From positions 3,658,001-3,722,000 of the forward strand of contig CM066291.1 of NCBI GenBank assembly GCA_033816765.1: a DNA stretch of 64,000 nucleotides, in the 5' to 3' direction. Source of the stretch: Nothopassalora personata. Taxonomy: Eukaryota; Ascomycota; Dothideomycetes; Mycosphaerellales; Mycosphaerellaceae. Positions 6,280-46,435 of the stretch are shown one piece after another (the first letter of the stretch is position 1; every line of letters starts with the position of its first letter). A program made the position numbers and the translations under genes. The notes beneath the pieces were generated by a model, which worked only from the letters and a program-made list of their open reading frames with translations, was not told the DNA's origin and did not search any database.

Positions 6280-7118
6280 GCCTATTTAGCTCTAGTGTAA
6301 GCTATCGCTTACGTAACATGTCGTTTAGTCCATACTAATCCTTTAGAGCCTAGACAGCGTTTACTATACATTAGCTCCTAGCCTAGCTCTATAGTAGTCC
6401 TAATTAGGTAGGTGACCAATTTAGACCTTGCGGACGTAAAGATGTTATACATCCGCTACCTACGGTCGGTATCTAACTAGCGGAGCTTAATAAGCTCCTT
6501 ATCTTTAGCCGTAGCGTCTTTAGTAGTGTATACTAATTGGATTTGCTCGAACGTTAAGTACACCGGCTCTATTAGCTCGGCGGTAGTGTCGTTCGGATCT
6601 ATATACTTCTAGATATTTAGAGACTTAGCGTAGAGCTCTAACTAACGGTTAAACTTATCCCATTAGTTATGACTCTTAAGAACGATAGTACCGTACGGTA
6701 AAACACCGGTACTACCGGGTGTCTCGGTAGTCGCTATAACGGTGTTAATAGGCCTAATAAAGGGTCCTATAGGTCTACTAGGGTTACTGCACTACTGTGC
6801 AATAGTTGTTAATAGGATAATAATAGATCCTACTAGTTTTTAATAACGATGCAAAATCTGCTCTAGGGCTTCGTTTTATATAGCGAATGTTAGTAAGCGC
6901 CTATCGGGCTTATAACTATTACGTTATAAGTGGTTAGAAGTTATAAAATAGGCTTATAAAGGTGTTTTAAAAGCAGGTAGTAGATTACATATACCTAAGC
7001 TAGAATTGAAAGGGCTGCTTATAAAAAGGCTGTAGGTGACTAATTAATGTTACCTAATTCTTAGCCGCTACTACCTTAGGTTTAATTAGGCTACAGCGCC
7101 GGTATACGCTTAGATCGT
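6280..7118. other. RIP-mutated repeat remnant, unclassified
   Basis: TA-rich DNA with stops in all frames. I could not recognise a domain or matching ends within the window. It occupies the place where the 3' LTR of element A/G would be expected but does not resemble the family's LTR. It may be a separate degraded element. Confidence 0.4.
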
Positions 7119-7673
7119 AACACTTCTTCCTCCTATAAACGCCGTTAACGACTTACTCTAGATACTAAAATTTCTAGTATTAAAATAGCTCTATACACGA
7201 ATTGTTAGAAGTCTCGATCCTCGGGCATAGTAGTAAAGTATATCGTAGGTTCTCGGTCTAGGAAGTGTTCGGCCTATATTTAAAAAGGCTATAAGGACTA
7301 CGACGTACGTCTTTCTCGTCCGGAGTAGGAACGTCTTCGCAATTTACGCGATAAGCTTAAGCTAGAGCTTAAGAGGATTAAAGAGGAGGAGGTACGGCTA
7401 AAGATACGTAAGGTCCGTCTTTAGAAATAGCTACGCTTAGCTAAGCGTCGTACCAACGACGCCGTCGCTAAGGAGTTAGAGGAGCTCGAGGAGAAAGAGG
7501 CGCGCGAGGAGCTAGCGTCTCTTAAGTAGGCGTCGGGGGTAGAGGTGTCGCCTTCGCTAGTTTCTTTCTCGGATATCCTAGAGATACCCGTAAACGACTA
7601 GGCGGCGCTTTCTAGGGCGGAGTCCTAAGGCGAGTCCCTAGGGGTAGAAACTTATTAGGGTATTTATTTATAA
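7119..7673 (+). pseudogene. Antisense Cys6/coiled-coil ORF of element A/G, RIP-mutated
   Basis: On the + strand, opposite to this element's gag-pol, a frame ends in KELEELEEKEAREELASLK, GVEVSPSLVSFSDI and GIYL-stop (7671-7673). It matches the ORF of element B (37838-37284) across its whole length. About eight stops are visible, nearly all TAG at expected Gln codons. The start is damaged: ATG has become ACA with a one-base loss. Cys positions of the cluster have become Tyr in places (TGC to TAC). The protein would be a small Zn-cluster, basic coiled-coil protein; its role is unknown. Confidence 0.65.
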
Positions 7674-8079: not shown

Positions 8080-8265
8080 TGTCACGGGGTGGCCTTGACC
8101 TTGGACCCTTCGCCGGCTTAACCGCGGACCTTCCGGATCGGGTTAGCGCGGCTTGGCACGAGATCGACCTTGCTTCTCTCTTCTCTCTCGTTCTTAGACT
8201 CTTCGTAGATTGTATTATTCACGACTTGACTCCTACACTCTCTGGATCTCATATCGCCCGTGTCA
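8080..8265 (+). repeat. 5' LTR of element 2
   Basis: 186 bp, TGTCACGGGG...GCCCGTGTCA. Same sequence as 14801-14986 by eye. Confidence 0.95.
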
Positions 8266-8402
8266 TTACAATCTACCGCTCATAAGCTGCACGCGTCCGC
8301 AAGGATCCGTACAGCGCGCTCAAACTAACAGCGCATTGTCAGCTCGAGCAACGCGCTCTAGCACCAGACCCGAGTGGTAGCGATTGTCAACATCCCACCA
8401 TC

Positions 8403-11400
8403 ATGGAAGGCGAACAAGCAGTTCCAAACCCTCCTCCTCCGCAGCGAGGCCGACGACAGTCTCGAGGCGAGGACGAGGAGCGACCCGACTTACCAAGAGA
8501 CCGATCACCACGAGAGCGATCCTCTATGCCACCCACCACGCGACTTCGGCGCCAACTCGACAGTGCTGACGACGCAGTTACACCGAAAGTAACAGGCAAC
8601 TTCAATCTCGACGAGCCGACGCCAGGGCGCCCGCTCAAGCAGAAGGGAACTGTCGTCGCCGACACGCAAGAGACGATTGGCCGACAGTCAGAATCAGCAT
8701 CGGCAGCACCGGCTCCGAAGCCAGCGAAGAAGTACCCTCTGACAGAGGAGCAGCGCGAAGAGTATGCGCAGAGGAACTCCACGGACCGCCTCACGTACAA
8801 CAAGGACGAGGGAACCGTGGCTAGACAGACAGAGCACTGCGACCTCGGCTGGGCAGTGCCACGCGACATTACCACCTACAAGAATGCCGAAGGTCACAGA
8901 CTGCTACAGGCCCGGTACAAGGTCAACAACTTCAAGTTCGGCAACGCGAAGGACCTCAAGCTGGTCGTCAACCAGGGCAATGAGGAACACCCGGATGCCG
9001 GTGCCAAACGCTTCCTAGACGTACTCGACAACGTCAACCTGATTATCGCCAGAAGCGAGGAGGCCGTTGAGGAACACGATGCGCTCATCGAGCAGCACGA
9101 AGATACTATCGCCCAACAGGACAAGACTATCACCCAGCAAGAGAAGGTGATCACGCGCTTGGAAAAGAAGGAAAAGACTTCAACAAAGATGATAGAAGAA
9201 GCCATCGACAAGTTCGCCGCGTACAAGACTGAGCTGGCGGCCCTTCGACAGGACAAGCAAGACCTAGAGCAGCGTCTCAAGGCCATGGAGGCAAAGGAAA
9301 CAGAAGCTGACGACAGTGAGAAGGAGGATGCAACACTTGCACGACTAGGCAAGTACCTCCAGGATACCGACGGCGACGATTCCGACGTCGAGTCGGAAGC
9401 CAATCTCAGACGTCGGTACACCACCCACACCACGAAGGTCCCGCTGCGCAAGGCGGCCGGATCAGCTGGTGGTACACCAATGCCGAAGCCGCGGCCACGA
9501 GGCGTCTCCCCAGCAGGTTCCGGTATCAGCGCTATACTCGGTCGGAAGCGCAGCTCACATGCTCAAGAACTCATCGACGACGATGATGATGCTCGGCCGA
9601 CCTGTTCCGGCTCCGAAGCACGCGCCAGCGGCATCAAGGCGCCGGATGCATTCTCCGGCGAGGCAGGCAAGGAACAGAAGCCTTACCTCGAGTGGAAGCA
9701 GAAGATGAAGTACTACCTACGTATGGGTTGCAAGGGCTTCAGCGACGAAGACTTGAAAGCTACTGTCATCAACTGCACCACTGGATTCGCCTACAGTGTC
9801 CTCGAACCTATCGAGTCCACACTGGCTACGGCGGATCACGTCTTCGAGGTGCTCGACGAGGCCTGCGGCGATAAGCATACGCGCACCACGAAGCGTGCAG
9901 AGTATCAGTACCTCAAGCAGGGTGACGGCGAGGTTTTCAGCAAGTTCTGGGCCAAGTTCGTGTCATATCTGCCATACATCTCACACGACAAGGATGACCC
10001 AGATGATTTGCCCGAGCAGATGCGGGCAAAGCTCAGCAAGGCTTACCGCGACTGCATCCGTGGCGAGCGTTTCAAGGATATCATGGCTATGAAGGACAAG
10101 CTCCACATGATCGAGGCTGACTTCCTTCACGATAAGGCAGGCGGCAGTAGCGGCGGAGGTCGTCGCCATGGCGGAACTGGTGGCGACGGCAACGACAAGT
10201 CACCTCTCCAGAAAGCCAATGATGCACTCAAGAACGGCTATGATTGGGACAAGGCCAAGGATGGCGGTCTCTCATCGTTCCGGCCCATTACCCAGAAGGA
10301 GTTCGACGACCGCACTAAGTGCTTTGCTTGCAAGAAGGAGGGATGCCGCAAGACCCTTCCAACATGCCCGTATGCACCATACAAGAAGGCCTCGCGTCGT
10401 CCGAACAACAGCACTCTCGACGTGCCTGGTGTTGAGGAAAAAGTCGCCGCTTCAACAGTGCAGCTGGGCGGACGACGGCAACCTATCGCCCTAACTGCTG
10501 ACCTGCCAACGGTTTGTTCTCTCTCGGTTTCACCGCACATGAGCCTCCCACCCATATCGAAGCATGTCGTGCTTTGCGGCATGGTCGGAGGGCAGCTCGT
10601 ACGCTGTATGCTCGACACAGGTTGTACCTCTCTCTTTGTCCATGAGAGGTTTGCGAAACTAAATCTACAGCGCAAGCGCCTGCCAGAAGCGCTGCCATAT
10701 ACTGGCTCGAAGGGCAGCACTGCGGGACTGATCACACAGATTGCCAGCATTCCAGACATCGACTTCAACGGCCAGCACGACAGCTTCAATGCCTGGGTCG
10801 CTGATCTCGGGCAATACGACCTCATCCTCGGCATGCCATGGTTTGAGTCCAACCTTCCACACATCGACTTCGTCACGCGCACGCTTACCTTCGACAGCGG
10901 GATCTCCGCTCGCTGCGAGACCAAGTCCGATCCCAAACCTGGCACACCGCGTTTCGCCTCTGAGCCGGTGGTGGAAGGCCCTCTCGAAGACCTTCCAGAC
11001 ATCAACATCATAACTGTGGGAGAAGCGCAGTCTGCAGTGGACGAGGGCCAAGAAGCATACCTCGTCTGGGACTACGATGACACGTCTGACACAGCAGCAG
11101 TGCTCGACGACGTCGGATTGCACATCTGCGCCATGAACCCAGATGACCTGGAGCGCTACATGAAGGGCAAAGAGGAGGTCGACGCTAAGCAGCTCTTGCC
11201 ACCTGATTTCCACCAGCGCGTCCAGGCATTCAACCCCGAGCTTGCGAAGTCACTTCCGCCACACAGGGAGGGGGACCTTGCGATCGATTTCATCCCTGGT
11301 GCTAAGCTGCCTTTCGTTAAGCCCCGGCCGGCAGGACGAGATGAGCTGATTGTGACCAAAAAGCACATCACGGATCTCGCGTCCATCGGCTACGTTCGTC

Positions 11401-14400
11401 CATCGACATCACGGGTCGCATCACCGCTTCTCATTGTTAAGAAGCCTGGTGGTGGACTCCGGGTGTGCGTGGACTACCGAGCCATCAACGAGATCACCAT
11501 TAAGAACAGGTATCCCATACCTCAGATACGTGAAACTCTAGCGCGCCTGTCCAAGGCCAAGATGTTCACTATCCTCGATATCATTGCGGCATTCAACCAG
11601 CTCCGTATCAAAGCCGGTGACGAATGGAAGACTGCTTTCACTACGCGCTATGGAACATACGAGTACTTGGTCGTGCCTTTTGGGCTATGTAACGCACCAG
11701 CGGCTTTCCAAGCCTACATCAATTCCGCACTGCACGACTATCTCGATGATTTCTGCACGGCGTATTTGGACGACACTATCGTGTACACAGAGCCGCCGGA
11801 GCAGGGAGGTTTCGACGCGCTTCGCAAGCTCCACGTCGAGCACGTCAACAAGGTCCTTGACAAGCTTATCGAAGCCCGCCTGCCCTGCGACATACTGAAG
11901 TGCCGTTTCTTCCAGACCGAAGTCAAGTTCTTAGGGATCATCATCACGGCGACCGGGCTGAAGATGGATCCCAAGAAAGTTCAAGCGATCCAAGAGTGGG
12001 CGACTCCACGCAATGTTACTGACGTCCTAGCATTCCTAGGGTTGTGCAACTTCTATCGCAGATTCATCGCCGAATTCGCTACTATAGCATTCGCCCTTAC
12101 ATGCTTGACCCGTGGCGCCAACAGCAAGGACCCAAAGCACCGTCCGGTCTGGCGCTGGACTGCAGAGTGCCAGGAGGCTTTCGATGCTCTGAAGCTGGCT
12201 TTTACCAAGGCACCAGTACTTAAGCATTTCGATCCGGACCTCCCAAGCACTGTCGAATGCGACGCCTCTGACACGGTTACAGCTGGAGTCCTGTCCCAGC
12301 CAGATCCAGACGACGGCTAGGCACTCAAACCAGTTGCTTTCTACTCTACAAAGATGATTCCAGCGGAATGCAATTACGAGATCTACGACAAGGAACTTAT
12401 GGCAATCGTGCACGCATTCGAGGAATGGCGGCCCGAGCTTATGTCTTGCGATCCAGCTACACCAATCAAGGTGCTATCCGACCACCGCGGCTTGGAGTAC
12501 TTTATGACTACCAAGCAGCTTAACAGACGTCAAGCCCGGTGGGCGGAGTTCCTGTCTGCTTTCAACTTCAAGATCACGTACAGACCTGGCAAAGACAACG
12601 TGAAGGCCGACTGCCTTACACGACGATCCCAGGACCAGGACAAGTCCGATGATCTGCGCAACCGCCGCCAAGTTCTGCTCAAGGAGGACAATCTCAGCGA
12701 CGAGGTGCGTGCGACACTGCCGCAGGTCGCTTGTCTCGAGGTACCCGATCCAGCAGCAACAGCCAAGCGTCAGTACGAGCTCGCCATAGCTGCACTGGAA
12801 GTCCTAGACGGCGCCACTCCAGGCGATCCTTCCATTGAGGAACAGATCCAGCTTGCGTACGCCAAAGACGAGCTCGCTTGTGACATTCGCGAAGCAATCA
12901 AGAAGGATCTGCCCAAGCTGAAGGACGCACGCGTATCTATCACCGATTGCCGCATCGAACATGACACGATCTTCGTGCGCGACAAGGTGTATGTACCGGA
13001 TTCTGAGGACTTGCGAGGCGAAGTCATGCGCCAGCACCACAACACTCTCCTCACCGGTCATCCAGGCCGCGAGAAGACGTATGAACTGATCGCCCGCGAG
13101 TACTGGTGGCCGGGGATGTTCAAGGATGTTCGCAGGTACACAGATGCATGTCACGTCTGCACCCGCATACGCGCTTTCACTCGAGCATATTCAGGAGGTT
13201 TGCGGCAGCTGCCAGTACCACAAGGAGCATACCGCGAAGTCACGATGGACTATGTGGTTGAGCTGCCAGCTAGCACATCAGCCGAGGGCGTCACCTTCAC
13301 CAACATCCTGACAGTCACGGAGCGACTCACTAAACGCAAACACTACATCGCAGTTAAGGACTTGACCGCCGAAACAGCGGCAGATGTCTGCCTGCGTTAC
13401 ATTATCAAGGACCAGGGACTTTTCGACGTCGTTTACAGCGATCGCGGGTCCCAGTGGGTCAGCGCATTCTGGAAACGCCTGTTGCTACTGATGCGCGTCG
13501 ACCAGCGACTGTCTACTGCTTTCCACCCGTAAACAGATGGGCAGAGTGAAAGCACCAACAGGATTATGGAAATGTATCTCCGCGCATTCGTCAACTACGC
13601 GCAGGACGACTGGGTCCAGTTGCTTCCTATGGCCGAGTTCGCCGCCAACAACGTACGGTCTGACACTACAGGTGTGTCACCGTTCTTCGCAACTCTGGGC
13701 CGCCATCCGCGCATGACTTTCACACCGCCATCGGAGCTCGCCAAGCATTCTGGACCTACCGCACAGCGCATTGACCAGCAAGCTGCCGATGACTTCGCCG
13801 CCAAACTTGAGCAACTTCATGACTACTGTGCGACTCAAATGCGTTGGGCGCAGGCTCGATATGACGACAGCGCGCTCACTTCTCGACAAGCAGCACCGCG
13901 CTATCGCGTCGGCGACAAGGTTTGGCTCGACACGCGCAACATACTGACTCGCCGACCAAGCAAGAAACTCGACCACAAGAACAACGGCCCTTGGCCAGTC
14001 GAGAAGGTACTAGGCAACGACGCATACCGACTTACCCTGCCAGCCACTATGAAGATACACAACGTCTTCCACACCAGCCTCTTGCGCATCGCCGACTCGA
14101 ACCCGTTTCCCAACCAACACGATACCGAGCCACCGCCAGTTATCGACGCCGAAGGTCAGCAACGTCACGAGGTGGAGGAGGTGATTAAGAGCAAGTGGAC
14201 AGGCAGGGCGCACAAGGAGGTTCGCTACACATACCGATGGGTCGGCGGCGCCCACACCTCAGAGGTCTACAAAGTCAACATCGGCGGACCCGATGACTTG
14301 ATCGCAGACTTTCACCACAACAACCCTGATGCTGATGGCCCGCCGCCCGGATGGAAGCCGCCAGCGCTATGGATACCGAACGAGAAAGTTGGGTCAACCG

Positions 14401-14525
14401 CATTACCCGCGCACATGGCAGATGCTGGACAACCACCTGTCTCCGCACCGACACCGACCACAGAAACGCCGGTCCTCCGCCGTTCAGCGCGCACGCGAGG
14501 AGATACAGCTGTCTCGCCGAAGTGA
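8403..14525 (+). pseudogene. gag-pol: Gag-Pol polyprotein of element 2, single frame with two nonsense codons
   Basis: One frame of 2040 codons starts at the ATG at 8403 (context CATCATGG). Residues about 215-300 are a Gln/Glu/Lys coiled coil. A retrotransposon Gag domain follows (about 400-590), then a cysteine cluster CFACKKEGC from residue 640. The protease motif MLDTGCTSLF has its Asp at residue 738. RT: VCVDYRAINEITIKNRYPIP near 1022 and YLDD with the first Asp at 1123. RNase H is interrupted by TAG at 12318-12320. Integrase has an HHCC segment (about 13036-13155), the D, D and E boxes MDYVVEL, YSDRGSQW and DGQSE, and TAA at 13530-13532 inside the conserved HPQTDGQ box (CAA to TAA). A chromodomain-like segment EVEEVIKSKW (about 14170-14270) ends the protein. 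Without these two CpA-type changes the frame is open. Confidence 0.9.
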
Positions 14526-14610
14526 TGAACTGCTCGGACACGGCCTTCAATGCGTGTGTAAGCACCGACTGTAGCCTCTCGCTGTTACAGCACGGCCTTA
14601 CTGAAGCACG

Positions 14611-14662
14611 CACACTGAAGCACCGGTCCGCGGTAACACACTGAAGCACCGGTCCGCGGTAT
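14611..14662 (+). repeat. 26-bp tandem repeat, two copies
   Basis: The unit CACACTGAAGCACC plus GGTCCGCGGTAA occurs at 14611-14636 and 14637-14662. A partial ACTGAAGCACG precedes it near 14600. Confidence 0.85.
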
Positions 14663-14787
14663 CTACACGCACCGCTCGAGCCGACCATGCTACACATCCC
14701 TTACACGCCAGACGAGGCCGCTGTCGCATTGGTTACATACTGTTTGATTTTCTTTTTACGCACGTCGCAGGCGCTCGTGGCCATTTT

Positions 14788-14800
14788 GGAGGGGGGGTAC
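14788..14800 (+). other. Polypurine tract of element 2
   Basis: GGAGGGGGGGTAC directly precedes the 3' LTR. This is the usual plus-strand DNA primer site in LTR retrotransposons. Confidence 0.8.
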
Positions 14801-14986
14801 TGTCACGGGGTGGCCTTGACCTTGGACCCTTCGCCGGCTTAACCGCGGACCTTCCGGATCGGGTTAGCGCGGCTTGGCACGAGATCGACCTTGCTTCTCT
14901 CTTCTCTCTCGTTCTTAGACTCTTCGTAGATTGTATTATTCACGACTTGACTCCTACACTCTCTGGATCTCATATCGCCCGTGTCA
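14801..14986 (+). repeat. 3' LTR of element 2
   Basis: 186 bp, same sequence as the 5' LTR, followed by the TSD AGGCG. Confidence 0.95.
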
Positions 14987-20004: not shown

Positions 20005-21957
20005 ATGGAAGGGGTCTATAGGGATTCTATCCCTTATAAGGGGATAGAGGAATCGGAGGAAGGGGAAACACCTAAATCTAGTAAGGAAGGGAGAAGCGGA
20101 ACTAGCGCCGCTAAATTGGGTATAGGTATAGGAACGAATAGCACAATTGGAATAGATACTATAACTGCCCTCTTTAGACGATTAGTAGTAGCAATAGAAA
20201 ACGCTAGCTCTCGCTTTCCACCTCTAGGAGGTGCTAAGAATCCGTTCTTTAATAGCACTAATGCTACTAAGTTCTAGGAGCGGTTTAGCGACCTAATAGA
20301 CTAGTATCCGCCTCGGGCATCTATTAAGAAGGATAATTTCTAGGGCAGGTTTAAGCACAATTGCGAAACTACTATCCGGCGCGTAGTTATGAGGCTGCCT
20401 AGGTGGCTTACTAACAAGGCACGTTTTAGGAGGGCGTTCTTATTAGAGTTCTTAAGGTTTAACGCCTACTCGATGTTAGGGAGTCGGGAATATCTTAAGG
20501 AGATTATTAGGGCGCAGTAAGGTAAGAGGCCTAAAGAACAAGATGTGAAGGAATTCATCCGCCTGTTTGTATCCTTAAGTGATCTAATTGAACCTAAGGA
20601 TTTGGATAATAGCTCCCGGAGTCGCCTCCTCCTTTAGGGATTACTAGAGGGAGTCGCGAAAGCGGTCTACAAGGCTTACGGGCTTTACCTAAAGCAACCT
20701 AAGAAGTTTAGGGACTTTTAGAGGATCCTCGATAAAGCTGCTAGCATCGTAGATAGTAAGGAGGGATAGAAAGCTATATATATAAATTTCCCTCTTACTT
20801 TACCTTAGCTACACCGCTTAGTCGTAAAGTAAATACCGCGCCTTAAGCCTAAGATTAACACGCTTAAGAAGGCCACTTCTAGGACTGTTATTAATGATGA
20901 CCTTATCTAGAAGGTAGCTAAAATAAGCATACGTATATACTAGCGCGGTCGCGTCGCGGACGCGGGTACCTTCTACCCGAGCGAGAATTAACGCTCTATG
21001 TAACCGGAGAGGCACGACCTAGACACTAAACTGTAGGTTTACGTAATGTAGCGTCCCCTATTGTAGAATCGCGAATAGTCTAAAGCGATAGATGGTTGTT
21101 ACTATAACTATAGTAGTTCGAAGCACTAGGCTAGTAACTATAGGGCGATAAGGTCCTTAATATCTCGGGGCTACGTACACCTCGCCCCGAACAACTAGTA
21201 GTATCTAGGGAAAGAAGGCGATCCGCGTCCCACTAAGTTTAACTTTCGGAGGGACTACAGTAAACCGAAACTGCTCTATATGCTCCCTCTACTCGAAGAA
21301 TATTATAGGCCGATCGAGTTTAATAACTAGTATAAGATTTCTGCACTACGTAAGCAATAGATAGGTAGGGACTACACTAGGGTAATAAAGGTTACGCCTC
21401 CTAATTATTCTAAGCCCCCTCCTAACTTCAGGCATTTAATAGAGTATAGCCCTTAGGACGCACGGTCTAGCTAAATAGAGAAGGCTACTAGTACATATTA
21501 GGTCTCATTCGGAGAAAGTAAAGTGGAGTAGGCGGTCGACTTAGGCGAGCTTAACGAGGTATCTACCTATCCTATACAGTCTAACAAAGTGAAAGGGAAG
21601 GCACCCGTAGGTATTCTAAAGAATCTGCACCCGAGGACCCGGTCCTTAGCCTAGGATCTACGAGCCCGAGCTAAGGCTACTAAGAAAGTTCGCCTACAAT
21701 TAGAACAGGAGATCCGGTAAGCTAAGATTAACTAGTAGGAGGTTGAAATGATTAATGAAGTTAGTGCTTAAATAAGCGAAACTCAATTATTAGCTAAATC
21801 CGGGGTAACCCTAGGAAGGGGAAATGATGCCTAAGTAAATAGATTAGGGAACGATGCTAATAAAGGACTGCCTAAGGATATACCTGTTAGTCCCGTAAAC
21901 GCCCCCTTCGCATAAAGGAAGCGTATACAGAATGCTAAGACTATAAGGATTGATAAC

Positions 21958-22305
21958 TGTTACGGAACAGTGTTATCGGTGCAAATGGTTGGACAACGGA
22001 GCAGGAAACCAGACGAAGCTGCAGACATGGATGCCTGGGGAGTCACGTGACAGAGCGATCAGGACTGATCGGTCCTGATCACTCTTGATCAGTTGATCAG
22101 ACTCGCTCAGGGCAGAGCAGGACAGATCACGCCAAGACATGGCACTATATAGACGACGCTTCTTTACGAGTAGATAGGAGCCTCGTGCTCAACTCATTTT
22201 AAGTATACACCATATACTGTTTGGAACCACTACCTTCATAACTGATTGAGACATCCCTGCAAAGATCCAAGCCCGAGTTGTGATAACGTACAGCGGTTCC
22301 TAACA
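21958..22305 (+). repeat. 5' LTR of element C
   Basis: 348 bp, TGTTACGGAACAG...GTTCCTAACA, identical to the 3' LTR line by line. Contains TCACGTGA (22043-22050), an inverted repeat GATCAGGAC/GTCCTGATC (22057-22065, 22072-22080) followed by further TGATCA motifs, and a TATATA box (22146-22151). Confidence 0.97.
22146..22151 (+). promoter_or_regulatory. Candidate TATA box in element C LTR
   Basis: TATATA in context GCACTATATAGACG, about 155 bp from the LTR 3' end, a plausible Pol II promoter for the element transcript. The same context occurs in reverse in the solo LTR at 37897-38267 (near 38050). Confidence 0.55.
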
Positions 22306-22337
22306 ACTTTGAGCACCACCACCAGGGCCCTTTGCAT

Positions 22338-23330
22338 ATGTCTGGGAGAGACGCTACCCGGAGTCCGTCACGACAACAGCCACAGTCAACTGGCATCACG
22401 GAACGAATGAGCGAAATGTCGATTACAGGAAGCAGCAAGAACAACAACACTCCTATGGGTATGCTGAACCCATTGGACCACCACCGTGCACCTAAGGTGT
22501 CTACGCCGGAGACGTTCGACGGGACCAAGGACAAACTGGAGGCTTTTCAACTGCAGGTTCAGTTGTACCTTCACTTCAACGCACACCAGTTTCAAGGCGA
22601 GGCTTCTAAAGTCTTGTACGCCGCATCCTTCCTACGAGGAAAAGCAGCTAGAGGATTCCGACCATACCTCAAGGACTGGCTACACAACCAGGGCGAGGGA
22701 GAAACACCGAAAACGGAAACTCGAAAAATTTTCCACGACTACGACGAGTTTGAGACGAAACTCGATGATCTATACGGGATACCAAATGAGGAGGTATACG
22801 CCGACCGACATATCCGACAACTTCGACAGACTACTTCTGTAGCGCTGTACGCCTCAGAATTCCAAGGATATGCCGCCGACCTGGAATGGAACGACGCAGC
22901 TTTGCGATCGCAGTTCTACCTCGGGCTGAAAGACAACGTCAAAGCCGAACTATCCCGAAACGCCAGCGTCGTTACGCTAGGGGCGATGATCAAGGCAGCA
23001 AAGGAGATCGACGAAAGGCTCCAGGAGTTGAGGTACGACCGACACGTACAGCCTGGATACCAGAGACCCGCCGCGGGCGGAAGAGGGGGCTTCAAGGCCA
23101 GAAGTCAGGACCCTAATGGTTACGGAGACCCAATGGAATTGGACGTAACGGAACGTAGGACAGGAAGGGGGCTGAAGAGCAAAGGTTCCACCTGCTACGT
23201 ATGTGGCGAGCAAGGCCATTTTGCAAGGAACTGCAAGAAAAAGAACATGGTTAGCCGCGAGTTCAACGCAATGATTCGCGAAGAGAATACATACCAGGAA
23301 TGCGAGAACTTCTTCTCGAAATCTGCCTAG
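22338..23330 (+). CDS. gag: Gag protein of element C
   Basis: 330 aa from the ATG at 22338 (MSGRDATRSPSRQQPQ). A retrotransposon Gag domain spans about residues 55-245 (VSTPETFDGTKDKLEAFQLQ..., ...FYLGLKDNVKAELSR). A Gly/Arg-rich stretch and PMELDVTERR precede the zinc knuckle CYVCGEQGHFARNC (CX2CX4HX4C, near residue 290). The protein ends shortly after the knuckle at TAG, before any protease. It should assemble particles and bind element RNA. It is homologous to the RIP-mutated gags of B, D, F and G. An intact, uninterrupted frame. Confidence 0.93.
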   Translation: MSGRDATRSPSRQQPQSTGITERMSEMSITGSSKNNNTPMGMLNPLDHHRAPKVSTPETFDGTKDKLEAFQLQVQLYLHFNAHQFQGEASKVLYAASFLRGKAARGFRPYLKDWLHNQGEGETPKTETRKIFHDYDEFETKLDDLYGIPNEEVYADRHIRQLRQTTSVALYASEFQGYAADLEWNDAALRSQFYLGLKDNVKAELSRNASVVTLGAMIKAAKEIDERLQELRYDRHVQPGYQRPAAGGRGGFKARSQDPNGYGDPMELDVTERRTGRGLKSKGSTCYVCGEQGHFARNCKKKNMVSREFNAMIREENTYQECENFFSKSA

Positions 23331-23405
23331 CAGAAACAACCTGAGGACAGCAAGGCATCAAACAGCGGCTTCTTGATTTGATGACCTAGGGAAAAGAAGT
23401 CAACA

Positions 23406-23978
23406 CTACGACACGGCCACAACGAACAAGAATACCCACGATGGGAGGACACCACTGGGGGTTTCTAGGAAACCAGCGGGAAGGGAGTCCCAATCGAAAG
23501 TATCCAACCACTGCAGGGACTTGGTCGACAAGGGCTCGAGGGGAAGATCGGGATCGGACCGGAGAATGGCGGATTGCTCCGAGCGCCAGGTCTGCTGATC
23601 CTCCAGAAACAACTCTTCCTGGAGGCACGTCGCCTTCTTCGAAGCGCGCTCTTCGGCAAGCTTCAGAGTGCGACGGAGACGCGAGATCTTGGAAAGAAGA
23701 GCGCTCAACTCCTCTTGTTTCTTGTCCAGAGCGTCGAGGGAGTTCTCAAGGTCTCTCGAGACCTGCTCCCTGGTGCGGTCAAGCGAAGACCACGACGCAT
23801 TCACACACTTGCGACCCTGGGAAATGCAGTTGGAACAGCGGGCGGAACGAGATTCGTCTGGAAGCATGATGCAACAAAGGCCGCGACTATTACAGTAGTC
23901 GCAGGGGGATTCGGCGGGAAGACCAGACCGGGAAATTTCGTCCAGAACGCGCTTGCGACGGTCAGTCGAGGACGGCAT
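23406..23978 (-). CDS. Antisense Zn2Cys6-like coiled-coil protein of element C
   Basis: 190 aa on the strand opposite gag. I chose the ATG at 23978-23976 (MPSSTDRRKRVLDEI); the frame continues upstream only through non-ATG codons. The cluster CDYC...CC...C..C...C fits CX2CX6CX11CX2CX6C, the spacing of fungal binuclear Zn2Cys6 DNA-binding domains. It is followed by a Glu/Lys/Leu coiled coil (about residues 70-125) and an acidic/aromatic tail. The start lies 79 bp from the 3' LTR. Equivalent ORFs occupy the same place in A/G, B and D. Function unknown; candidate roles are DNA or RNA binding, or regulation of the element or host. The ORF is certain, the zinc-cluster reading likely, the role open. 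Confidence 0.85.
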   Translation of the reverse strand: MPSSTDRRKRVLDEISRSGLPAESPCDYCNSRGLCCIMLPDESRSARCSNCISQGRKCVNASWSSLDRTREQVSRDLENSLDALDKKQEELSALLSKISRLRRTLKLAEERASKKATCLQEELFLEDQQTWRSEQSAILRSDPDLPLEPLSTKSLQWLDTFDWDSLPAGFLETPSGVLPSWVFLFVVAVS

Positions 23979-24009
23979 CGTTAGCAAGAGAAGGAAAGGA
24001 CTCACAAGT

Positions 24010-24017
24010 CTTTATAA
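24010..24017 (-). promoter_or_regulatory. Candidate TATA box for the antisense ORF of element C
   Basis: The minus strand reads ATTTTATAAAG, placing TATAAA about 33-40 bp upstream of the antisense ATG. Its position between ORF and LTR fits antisense transcription starting at the 3' end of the element; the leader would be very short. Confidence 0.3.
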
Positions 24018-24044
24018 AATGGATTGTTGGGGACAACAATGCTG

Positions 24045-24057
24045 AAGGGGGGGATTA
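24045..24057 (+). other. Polypurine tract of element C
   Basis: AAGGGGGGGA followed by TTA immediately before the 3' LTR. Confidence 0.8.
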
Positions 24058-24405
24058 TGTTACGGAACAGTGTTATCGGTGCAAATGGTTGGACAACGGA
24101 GCAGGAAACCAGACGAAGCTGCAGACATGGATGCCTGGGGAGTCACGTGACAGAGCGATCAGGACTGATCGGTCCTGATCACTCTTGATCAGTTGATCAG
24201 ACTCGCTCAGGGCAGAGCAGGACAGATCACGCCAAGACATGGCACTATATAGACGACGCTTCTTTACGAGTAGATAGGAGCCTCGTGCTCAACTCATTTT
24301 AAGTATACACCATATACTGTTTGGAACCACTACCTTCATAACTGATTGAGACATCCCTGCAAAGATCCAAGCCCGAGTTGTGATAACGTACAGCGGTTCC
24401 TAACA
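24058..24405 (+). repeat. 3' LTR of element C
   Basis: 348 bp, identical to 21958-22305; followed by the TSD ATAAC. Confidence 0.97.
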
Positions 24406-25376
24406 ATAACTACGTCCGACAATATAGTTTAGCTAGTAATGGCCCGGTTATAAAGGAAGAGGGTATTATCTACTAGATTAATTAGATCCTCTAGACAACG
24501 TTTCCTAATGTGAACGCCTAAGATTAGTTTCGATATAGTCGCTAGTTCGAGGCTACCCTCTTCGGTCGCGTTACTAACACCCCCGCTCTTTAGGAGAAGC
24601 TCGCTATAGTACGACGCCTTATAGGAAAGGACCCTAAGGTTTGCACTAGACAAGTAGTTACCTATAAAGATGAACCTAAGTATAATAAGGAGGTCTTCCG
24701 CGAAGATAGTAAGGCCTAGTATGTCGGAGTGTATTTAACTATGCTTTACTCTAAAGGAGCGGTCCCTACTACTAAGCTCTATAAGGACGTTAAGAAAATC
24801 GGGCTCTCTAGTGTCCTTAATAACTTTACTATAGTTCCTAGTCCTTAGGTAGTAGCGGAGTTCGGGATGAACAAGAACTAGATTAGGTACCTAATTAACG
24901 AGGGTTCCGAGGTAAATATCATCGGCTAGAGGAACGCTTATAGATTTAGGTTACCGGTAATGTCGAGTGCTTAGCTTACCTTTCGAGGTGCTAGAGGGCG
25001 GGCCTAGTTTAAAGGTGTTATAAGCAATTTATATGTTTAGGTATTTAGGGTTCACTACTAAATAGACATGTTTATCTCCTCGGATCTAAACTCACTAATA
25101 ATCCTAGGACGTCCGTAGGCCCGTAAGGTGCGACTTACTACCCGTAACTGCGATAATAGTTTATAGGAGGGGACTGTTACTAGCCGTAAAGGTGAAAGTG
25201 TTATGTTTACTACCCTAGTTAGCTCGGACAGGTGTAAGACCCTTTAAGAACTGTTAAAAGCGTCGGGAAATGGAAGGGTAGGTTAAGTTACGGCGCTTAA
25301 CCTACCGATTTGCTAAAGCCGGATTTAATAAAATTAGTGAGGTTCTCGCACTATCTCGGAAAAACCTCGGACTTTA

Positions 25377-37283: not shown

Positions 37284-37838
37284 TTATAAATAAATACCCT
37301 AACGAGTCTATACCCCTAGGGACTCGCCCTAAGGCTCCGCTCTAGAAAGCGCCGCCTAGTTATTTACGGGCATCTCTAGGATATCCGAGAAAGAAACTAG
37401 CGAAGGCGACACCTCTACCCCCGACGCCCGCTTAAGAGACGCTAGCTCCTCGCGCGCCTCTTCCTCCTCGAGCTCCTCTAACTCCTTAGCGACGGCATCG
37501 TGGGTGCGATGCTTAGCTAATCGTAGCTGTTTCTAAAGACGGATCTTACGTATCCTTAGCCGCACCTCCTCCTCTTTAATCCTCTTAAGCTCTAGCTTAA
37601 GATTATCGCGCGAATCGCGAAGACGTTCCTACTCCGGACGAGTAAGACGCACATCCTAATCCTTATAGCCTTTTCGAATATAGGCCGAATACTTTCTAGA
37701 CCGGGAACCTACGATACACTTTACCGCTACGCCCGAGGATCGAGACTTCTAACAATTCGTACATAGAGCTATTTTAATACTAGAAACTTTAGTATCCTAA
37801 GCAAGTCGTTAATAGCGTTTATAGGAGGAAGAAGACAT
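37284..37838 (-). pseudogene. Antisense Cys6/coiled-coil ORF of element B, RIP-mutated
   Basis: ATG at 37838-37836 (MSSSSYKRY) to TAA at 37286-37284, exactly 185 codons in one phase with ten internal stops, nearly all TAG. CTNC is intact (residues 26-29); later cluster positions read Cys, Tyr and Tyr (C41, 50, 53), consistent with TGC or TGT to TAC or TAT. A basic then acidic coiled coil (ERLRDSRDNLKLELKRIKEE, KELEELEEEEAREE) and GVEVSPSLVSFSDIL follow. The ATG is about 73 bp from B's 3' LTR once the solo LTR is discounted. Homologous to 7119-7673. Confidence 0.75.
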
Positions 37839-37896: not shown

Positions 37897-38267
37897 TGTT
37901 AGGAACCGCTGTACGTTATCCCAACTGGGCTTGGATCTTTGCAGTGATGTCTCTGACTCGTTGAGAAGGTAGTGGTCCCAAACAGTATATGGTGTATACT
38001 TGAAATGAGTTGAGCACGAAGCTCCTATCTACTTGCAAAAGAGCGTCGTCTATATAGTGCCATGTCTTGGCGTGGTCTCGCGAGATCTGTCCTGCTCTGC
38101 GGATCTGTTCGACAGATCCCACAGATCCCTCAGATCCCTTGGTCACGTGTTCTGATCCTTGCCTTGCTGCCTGGATGATTGGTTGTCCCCTCTCTGCGAA
38201 CTAAACCGTAACACCCCTTGCTGCCTGGATGATTGGTTGTCCCCTCTCTGCGAACTAAACCGTAACA
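37897..38267 (-). repeat. Solo LTR (element C-like family), unmutated, with terminal 54-bp duplication
   Basis: The minus strand is an LTR ending GTTCCTAACA; the + strand starts TGTTAGGAACCGCTG and ends CCGTAACA. Perfect duplication CTAGG (37892-37896 and 38268-38272). Related to the C LTR through the ends, the TATATAG context and the ATATACTGTTTGG-like segment, but clearly divergent. A 54-bp unit is duplicated in tandem (38162-38215 and 38216-38269). It has AGATC repeats and CACGTG (38144-38149). It lies only 20 bp from B's 3' LTR. Confidence 0.92.
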
Positions 38268-45287: not shown

Positions 45288-45696
45288 TATTATTGTCTCG
45301 TTCTAGGGCTAGTCTCAAAAGAGAGATAAGTTAAGTCACGTGGCGGTATTATTCTTTAGAGAGGCTAAAGCAAGCTAAGCGAAGATGAATAATAGGAATA
45401 AGAGTTATATTCCAATTAGTGAGATAGTAACATAAGTTGAACGCATTAGAACCATAAGGGTTTCTAGCGTTCCTAAATATAAAGGAGATAGAGCGTTTAC
45501 TCTCCGTGCTCTCTATGCTCTCTATGCTCTCTCGAGATTACCGAGATTAACGAGATTAAGGAGATCACTTCAGTTACTCTCTCGGTTCCTTAGTTTTATT
45601 CCTACGGGTAAGAGAGCACTTCTCGGGCGGAAGCGCCTACCAATTGTAGAGGTCTAATTAGTTAGCTTCCTTTAGCCCTAGATTAGAACCGTAACA
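45288..45696 (-). repeat. 3' LTR of element D
   Basis: 409 bp; + strand TATTATTGTCTCG...ACCGTAACA (first G changed to A). CACGTG at 45337-45342. Same family as the solo LTR at 32265-32698. Confidence 0.9.
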
Positions 45697-45771: not shown

Positions 45772-46435
45772 ATGTCTTCTTCCTCCTAATCTAAATCTAC
45801 CGCTCGCCGTAAGAAGAAAGCCTAGTAGATCTTTCGTAACGGCGATACCGCAATGCGTCCGTATGATTCTTATTAAAAGGAGGGCCGTGTGTGTAAGGTG
45901 TACATCTCATCTAGTCGCTATTCCGAGTACTAGTAGCGGAATCTAAAGAGTTGCAATGCGAGGGTAACCGAGGGCGAGTGGAAGCGCTTATCGCTTTAGC
46001 GGAAGAAATTGTTGTAGGAACTAGATACCGCGAAGAGGATTCTTAGTGAAAGGTAGGATGCCTTAATAGAAGCGTATATAAAGGAAATGCGCTTTCGTAA
46101 GCAATTGGATGCGGTTAATTAGAAGGTTGCGGAGGGTCGTTCGTTAGAAGATCGGTTGTTACTAGACGAGGATCTAGGGGCGTAGGAGTACGCTATAGTA
46201 GACGCGGATCATAGTGCTCCTAATCTATCCTTGTCTCCTTAGACCTAGAGTACTGTCGAAGGTCTTCCGGACGACTTCTAGCTTTCTCCTTCTAGCGAGA
46301 CGGTGCCGTCGGTAGCTTAGCCGTCTCCTTCGTAAGGGTATTTATTTATAAGTTGTGTCCCTGTTCTTATTAATCGGCTAGGTAGCTTAGTAGTAGAGCG
46401 TAAGCTGTCTATACTCTTAAGGACGTAGGTTCGAT
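45772..46435 (+). pseudogene. Antisense Cys6/coiled-coil ORF of element D, RIP-mutated
   Basis: The ATG at 45772 (MSSSS-stop-SKSTARRKKKA) lies 75 bp from the 3' LTR. Cluster positions fit CX2CX6CX8CX2CX6C with four Cys now Tyr (YDSY...C...Y..Y...C; TGC or TGT to TAC or TAT). A coiled-coil region (EWKRLSL, ELDTAKRILSER, EAYIKEMRFRKQLDAVN) and an acidic tail follow. The natural end is uncertain: the phase read here passes into the tRNA-like sequence, to a TAG near 46433. The sequence is well diverged from the B and A/G versions but is the same architecture, closest in layout to the intact ORF of element C. Confidence 0.7.

Follow-up and report, generated by a model that had tools for sequence, protein, structure and literature searches.

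A Zn2Cys6-like antisense gene beside the 3′ long terminal repeat of gag-only retroelements in Nothopassalora personata, a candidate regulator of its own U3

Introduction

Antisense genes located between pol and the 3′ long terminal repeat (LTR) are known from Boty (brtn), Grande, RIRE2 and Retand; in the sections of a 2020 review that concern them, their proteins are described as having no clear similarity to others, save for an SMC and a TRP28 domain, and their function is termed unknown (PMC7264820). Here, we describe a gene of this kind in element C, a retroelement in a stretch of 64,000 nucleotides of the Nothopassalora personata genome (GCA_033816765.1, contig CM066291.1, positions 3,658,001 to 3,722,000), referred to below as the window. 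An initial annotation of the window had placed an antisense open reading frame (ORF) for a zinc-cluster protein beside the 3′ LTR of this element, opposite to gag-pol. The location was confirmed; the mention of pol was an error, because element C carries gag alone. The two 348-bp LTRs of element C are identical to each other, and the space from the end of gag (23330) to the 3′ LTR is occupied only by the antisense ORF. No earlier description of an LTR element with an antisense gene for a zinc-cluster protein was found among the top-ranked matches in the open-licence PubMed Central literature. The evidence below establishes a protein gene under selection, and we lean, by a modest degree, toward reading it as an LTR-borne regulator, probably an activator, of the unique 3′ region (U3) of its own element.

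Results

The antisense ORF encodes a protein under purifying selection

The antisense ORF of element C is a real protein gene. It is open over 190 amino acids and matches CX2CX6CX11CX2CX6C, exactly as first annotated. The antisense proteins of two related elements, L032 and L033, were 97% identical, and the 58 nucleotide differences over their 215 codons were distributed 4/5/49 over the three codon positions (chi-square p = 1.5e-15), giving nonsynonymous (dN) and synonymous (dS) rates of 0.017 and 0.417 and a dN/dS of 0.040; the gags of both elements matched the query at 100%. This was the one informative close pair, and it answers with purifying selection the dN/dS check on intact copies that the annotation had suggested. 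Two further close pairs, with one and two differences, were uninformative, and in 10/12 more distant pairs where dN/dS was computable it was 0.12-0.54, with dS saturated. Copies free of stops made up 14/14 in family F1, 9/9 in A3 (100% identity), 27/32 in F5 and 13/23 full-length rows in A4. The invariant columns in 15 related proteins were M1, R100 and the six cysteines, and in a second set of 25 proteins (24 public proteins plus P0001) the six cysteines only. A chance or non-coding ORF was rejected by the codon-position pattern.

The same data bear on the alternative that the antisense RNA is the working part, through double-stranded RNA or interference, with the frame incidental. A transcript extending beyond the ORF would overlap gag, and RNA-level roles are discussed for plant elements in the review passages (PMC7264820); however, this explanation is largely refuted by the 49 of 58 differences at third codon positions, and runs against the six cysteines being invariant in both the 15 and the 25 proteins, and we consider it very improbable.

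One gag is associated with many antisense families

The gag of element C was found in at least 122 genomic copies at 98-100% identity, one with an in-frame stop; because 122 out of 1049 gag candidates were scored, the copy number is a lower bound. In 118/122 copies, an antisense-gene match lay directly downstream on the other strand. These matches formed 13 families, which were defined by hand from identity bands of the searches and include rows with stops (e.g. 5/32 in F5). In the four gag copies with no antisense match (L034, L037, L044 and L047), the stretch from gag to the shared LTR part was shortened, and frames were disturbed in L043 and L046. Representative antisense proteins were 18-63% identical across families, mostly 20-40% (L046 set aside), and the gags beside these diverged proteins were 98-100% identical. 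The strong protein divergence noted in the annotation is thus real for intact copies in other parts of the genome; in the window copies it is partly due to repeat-induced point mutation (RIP).

A protein serving the particle structurally or in nuclear entry, complementary DNA import or integration-site choice, not in transcription, would fit the retention of the gene where pol was lost (the 118 copies above) and the net basic charge of the first 25 residues in 34/40 proteins. The constancy of gag beside such diverged antisense proteins argues against a fixed gag partner, and the tendency of the antisense gene to change along with the LTR front (see below) also speaks against a cofactor of this kind, which we regard as unlikely.

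The first ATG was 72-103 bp from the LTR in 22/32 mini-elements having the ORF (this survey excluded L022 and the second L026 element); the exceptions were L043, L046 and two families, F2 and F13, whose first ATG precedes the conserved start. Element C has a TATA-like sequence in its leader (Table 1); a simple scan for TATA boxes gave no match in the leaders of 10 other representatives. Full-length elements of ~7 kb (L011-L014) had the same kind of gene at the same place. L011, the one of these four that was scanned for domains, contained Chromo, reverse transcriptase (RT), RNase H and integrase domains, and the gag frame was split in L012 and L014. The gag ORF at L011:5118-7214 also matched the Pfam WCCH motif (PF03716, E = 1.2e-7). 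No autonomous element having the gag of the mini-elements was found, a question barely tested with 122/1049 gag candidates scored.

The LTR front and the antisense gene tend to vary jointly

Five mini-element families were compared in ten pairwise blastn alignments. Every pair showed one long match across gag at 90-99% identity, which started at LTR position 122-169 in 8/10 pairs and ended ~85 bp beyond the gag stop. The F5-F6 match started at ~80. That of F2-F7 started beyond the LTR, and a second, separate match of 67 bp surrounded the TATA box; only ~70 bp of the later LTR part of F2 matched closely. Outside the long match, the antisense gene, leader and LTR front were mostly unmatched between families, except that in F5-F6 the leader and the start of the gene still matched at 79%, and short pieces matched in a few pairs. 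The shared LTR part started upstream of the TATA box; the TATA part was constant in all five families and the remainder of the LTR in four of the five. In element C, the shared part was 91-96% identical to F5, F6 and F7 and close to F2 over the first 70 bp only.

The cassette-specific LTR front was often rich in short repeats. That of element C contained 23 repeated 7-mers vs 6.8 in shuffles, a number reached by 1/300 shuffles, and repeats exceeded shuffles in 14/15 mini-element sequences (0-23/300 shuffles reaching the observed number). The repeat test covered 15/34 mini-elements plus A3 (11/300) and A4 (0/300), with L032, L035 and L040 representing one family. There was no excess in the L030 LTR front (154/300) or in the shared LTR core (2 vs 5.1), and counts were low in gag windows, for which there was no shuffle control. 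One 7-mer occurred 18 times in the L031 front, mostly at 8-bp steps, and the L032 and L033 fronts contained runs of AGAGATCA or AGAGAGCA.

For 13 representatives (of 34 mini-elements), identity of the U3 lead (the first ~70 bp of U3) was correlated with protein identity (rho 0.23, p = 0.036) and with identity of the cysteine region (rho 0.34, p = 0.010). Dropping L033 and L043 post hoc gave rho 0.35, p = 0.005 for protein vs U3 lead, a value that we do not rely on. The comparison of proteins with fronts covered 16/34 mini-elements, of which 15 had a protein. The antisense gene and the U3 front tend to change jointly.

Several observations weigh against a regulator matched to its own U3. The coupling is imperfect: the U3 leads of L032 and L033 differ although their proteins are nearly identical; L030 and L043 share one LTR front but encode unrelated proteins; and the similar fronts of L016 and L042 accompany proteins that are 38% identical. 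Tracking of the protein by the array motifs was unsupported (Mantel p = 0.13 and 0.18 on k-mers), and strict linkage between U3 and the antisense gene was rejected by L030/L043.

Such mismatches (L030/L043, L016/L042), and array motifs that do not follow the protein, are what would be expected if the antisense gene and U3, both lying between gag and R, merely moved together without being functionally tied, the protein possibly acting otherwise. Co-movement is predicted by the exchange route alone, and recombination within LTRs has left a trace: at L026:4979-9483, the middle LTR of an F2-F1 heterotypic tandem is chimeric, with its front from F2 and its rear from F1, which is evidence of recombination within the LTR. 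The outer flanks of this tandem had no matching target duplication. Linkage by itself leaves the purifying selection on the protein unexplained, and we give this account a real but minority chance.

Two arrangements of related copies were recorded as well. Six F7-type mini-elements were arranged head-to-tail at G000:C12:1356314-1367580 with a constant period of 2056 bp, from which shared LTRs were deduced. On the small contigs C9, C20, C21, C30, C31, C33, C34, C39 and C40 of G000, a relative of the antisense gene recurred with identical score and stop count (4 TAG, 1 TAA); in two cases the spacing was 14,804 bp, as though the copies belonged to a larger repeated unit.

The protein resembles a zinc cluster

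Zn2Cys6 domains (PF00172) have the cysteine spacing CX2CX6CX5-16CX2CX6-8C. This spacing was present in 34/38 proteins, including that of element C, and in the remaining 4/38 X13 replaced X6; the set comprised the members of A1 and A4, without the fragments P0003 and P0027 (the latter exclusion also applies to A4 elsewhere). The cysteine pattern, which the annotation had expected in other members, is thus widespread in the family. In profile searches, P0001 matched Zn_clus at 7.8 bits, below the curated Pfam cut-off of 21 bits; of ten public relatives scanned to E 0.1, three matched at 13.8-14.6 bits, also below the cut-off, and at E up to 10 a match was obtained for 10/15 A1 members (best E = 3.6e-4). 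A basic residue directly before Cys3 was found in 4/38 family members vs 20/20 host domains. This feature was derived from the host set, which is biased because it was drawn from the best-scoring domains. Membership in PF00172 is not claimed; bit scores were below the cut-off where given.

AlphaFold2 (AF2) models had a mean predicted local distance difference test score of 85.7 and 79.3 and contained a short helix at each CX2C, followed by a helix of 79 or 81 residues. The coiled coil that had been annotated after the cysteines agrees with this modeled helix, which is of coiled-coil length. Of the Foldseek matches listed for the two models, 12/13 and 6/7 chains were Zn2Cys6 proteins, including in each list 6gys_B, which we take to be a chain of such a protein; all matches were weak, with none at E < 0.001 among those listed. 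The modeled fold resembles Gal4-type clusters, weakly matched. The Zn2Cys6-like identity given in the annotation is supported in part: it agrees with the spacing and with most of the listed, weak structural matches and falls short in the profile scores and at the residue before Cys3. No basic leucine zipper (bZIP) family and no TRP28 domain (PF04195) was among the seven Pfam matches of P0001 up to E 10. A search of viral contigs with A3 yielded 47 matches to the pattern, none of them a relative.

In element C, the tail after the long helix is acidic and contains Trp; across the family, the last 60 residues were acidic in 39/40 proteins and Trp was present in 38/40.

The other antisense copies in the window

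The annotation had listed the same ORF in four elements, A/G, B, C and D. Copies of the antisense gene are present in all of them, and those in D, A/G and B are RIP-type relics, not open frames: GC was 0.46-0.48 in these copies vs 0.58 in C, dinucleotide ratios were shifted as well, and some cysteines of the D copy now translate as Tyr. The four copies were therefore rejected as comparable, three being RIP-type relics, and A/G, B and D were excluded from dN/dS work. The annotated distances from the start to the LTR held for C (79 bp) and D, where the minus-strand LTR start motif has its end at 45696, giving 75 bp. For B, the 73 bp are obtained only after subtracting a solo LTR at 37897-38267, which lies between the antisense gene and the LTR of B, is flanked by the target-site duplication CTAGG and cuts the leader into 58 + 15 bp. 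The front of this solo LTR resembles that of L029 (F9 type, by eye), and 54 bp of its U3 end are duplicated in tandem. The A/G copy is not adjacent to its own LTR, and the apparent end of a different LTR (7115-7122) abuts its reading frame. An element with identical 186-bp terminal repeats (8080-14986) is inserted into the RIP-mutated A/G element and has gag-pol-type ORFs of 1305, 392 and 319 aa with RT, RNase H, integrase and a Tf2-1-like SH3 domain.

Table 1. Positions of element C, its parts and the other antisense copies in the window
Feature	Position	Strand	Remarks
Element C	21958-24405		gag and antisense gene, without pol
Target-site duplication, left	21953-21957		ATAAC
Target-site duplication, right	24406-24410		ATAAC
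5′ LTR	21958-22305	+	348 bp, TG...CA
gag	22338-23330	+	330 aa; Retrotrans_gag and zinc knuckle; no pol after it
Antisense ORF	23406-23978	-	
Six-Cys cluster of antisense ORF	aa 26-58		
Long helix of antisense ORF	aa 63-141		modeled
Leader of antisense ORF	23979-24057	-	ORF start to 3′ LTR
TATA-like sequence in leader	24011-24016		TATAAA, 38 bp before ATG of antisense ORF
G-run in leader	24047-24053		putative sense polypurine tract, judged by sequence
3′ LTR	24058-24405	+	348 bp
Cassette-specific LTR front	24058-24225, also 21958-22125		varies among families along with antisense gene
TGATCAG-type motif in U3	24157-24202, also 22057-22102		repeated; limits by eye
Shared LTR part	24226-24405	+	TATATA at 24246-24251; R and U5 presumed, limits too
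Element D antisense copy	45772-46332	+	family A4; RIP-type mutated, 15 internal stops
Element B antisense copy	37284-37838	-	RIP-type mutated, 10 internal stops
Element A/G antisense copy	7119-7673	+	RIP-type mutated, 10 internal stops, start codon absent

Discussion

The reading that we prefer, by the modest degree stated above and from sequence features, is that the antisense gene encodes a small, dimeric, Zn2Cys6-like DNA-binding protein that regulates, and probably activates, its own U3. The ORF would be read leftward from an antisense promoter at the 3′ LTR edge; the product would bind zinc and DNA, dimerize through the long helix, and, as a dimer, bind the U3 front of its own family, most likely activating sense transcription. 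With a basic end, a zinc cluster, a coiled coil and an acidic tail, the protein may follow a miniature Gal4 plan.

Activation is preferred to repression because of the acidic tails only. A protein limiting the transcription and copy number of its own family would resemble HBZ of human T-cell leukemia virus type 1 (HTLV-1), with which it shares the position beside the 3′ LTR; in the relevant passages of PMC4793531, overexpression of HBZ, which is read from the 3′ LTR, represses activation by Tax, and the 5′ LTR of HTLV-2 is inhibited by APH-2. The acidic, Trp-bearing tails of nearly all members look more like an activation region; this is a weak point against repression, because HBZ too has an activation domain (PMC4793531, same passages). 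We rate repression as doubtful.

In reverse transcription, intermolecular strong-stop transfer occurs at R, and templates can be switched. Strand transfer in the shared R, combined with a switch of template where gag ends, would carry the regulator and U3 together, because the antisense gene sits between gag and U3. Elements with the same gag could therefore change regulatory identity by such joint exchange. Lambdoid phages exchange repressor-operator regions as a unit, and this genome contains at least 13 antisense families that share a single gag. By analogy, the families might form immunity types, in which each antisense protein would recognize solely its own cassette's U3 and elements sharing a gag would escape or compete by swapping regulator and U3; this extension is tentative, and we would not expect it to hold.

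The antisense gene described here combines protein-level selection, an architecture of the DNA-binding type and versions exchanged in nature while gag and the core promoter stay constant; with such a natural set, the target and the family-privacy of regulation become directly testable. If the preferred reading is true, non-autonomous elements relying on a borrowed pol retain a regulator of their own, and the evolution of regulatory identity is separate from that of the capsid gene.

Among described systems, Boty of Botrytis cinerea also is a fungal gypsy element with an extra antisense gene, brtn, between pol and the 3′ LTR (PMC4227169, PMC7264820, PMC8365987). ORFs in the brtn position (antisense, between pol or gag and the 3′ LTR) were found in L011-L014 and in the mini-elements, and a chromodomain gypsy host was found in L011, as in Boty, whose gag-pol has a chromodomain; Boty is a gag-pol element in these accounts, whereas mini-elements such as C have no pol, C being gag only. 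The passages on brtn mention no zinc cluster, and brtn was compared by description, not by protein sequence. Retand elements of plants likewise have antisense ORFs between pol and the 3′ LTR with predicted DNA binding, some being non-autonomous; about half have tandem repeats, and a regulatory role has been proposed; unlike the proteins here, theirs have a TRP28 domain (PF04195) and no six-cysteine cluster, and exchange of regulator and U3 is not mentioned in the sections concerned (PMC11963269). HBZ and APH-2 are antisense regulators from the 3′ LTR that act on 5′ LTR transcription; these are retroviral, HBZ has a bZIP domain and no zinc cluster, and expression is proven there, according to the passages of PMC4793531. 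Gal4-type Zn2Cys6 proteins (PF00172), the nearest listed folds, share six cysteines followed by a coiled coil, with the spacing in 34/38; the family proteins differ in scoring below the cut-off where scored, in being very short, in the X13 loop of 4/38 and in the rarity of the basic residue before Cys3 (4/38 vs 20/20 host domains). The passages on the known systems do not mention a zinc cluster, measured selection on the protein or many combinations of regulator and U3 on one gag.
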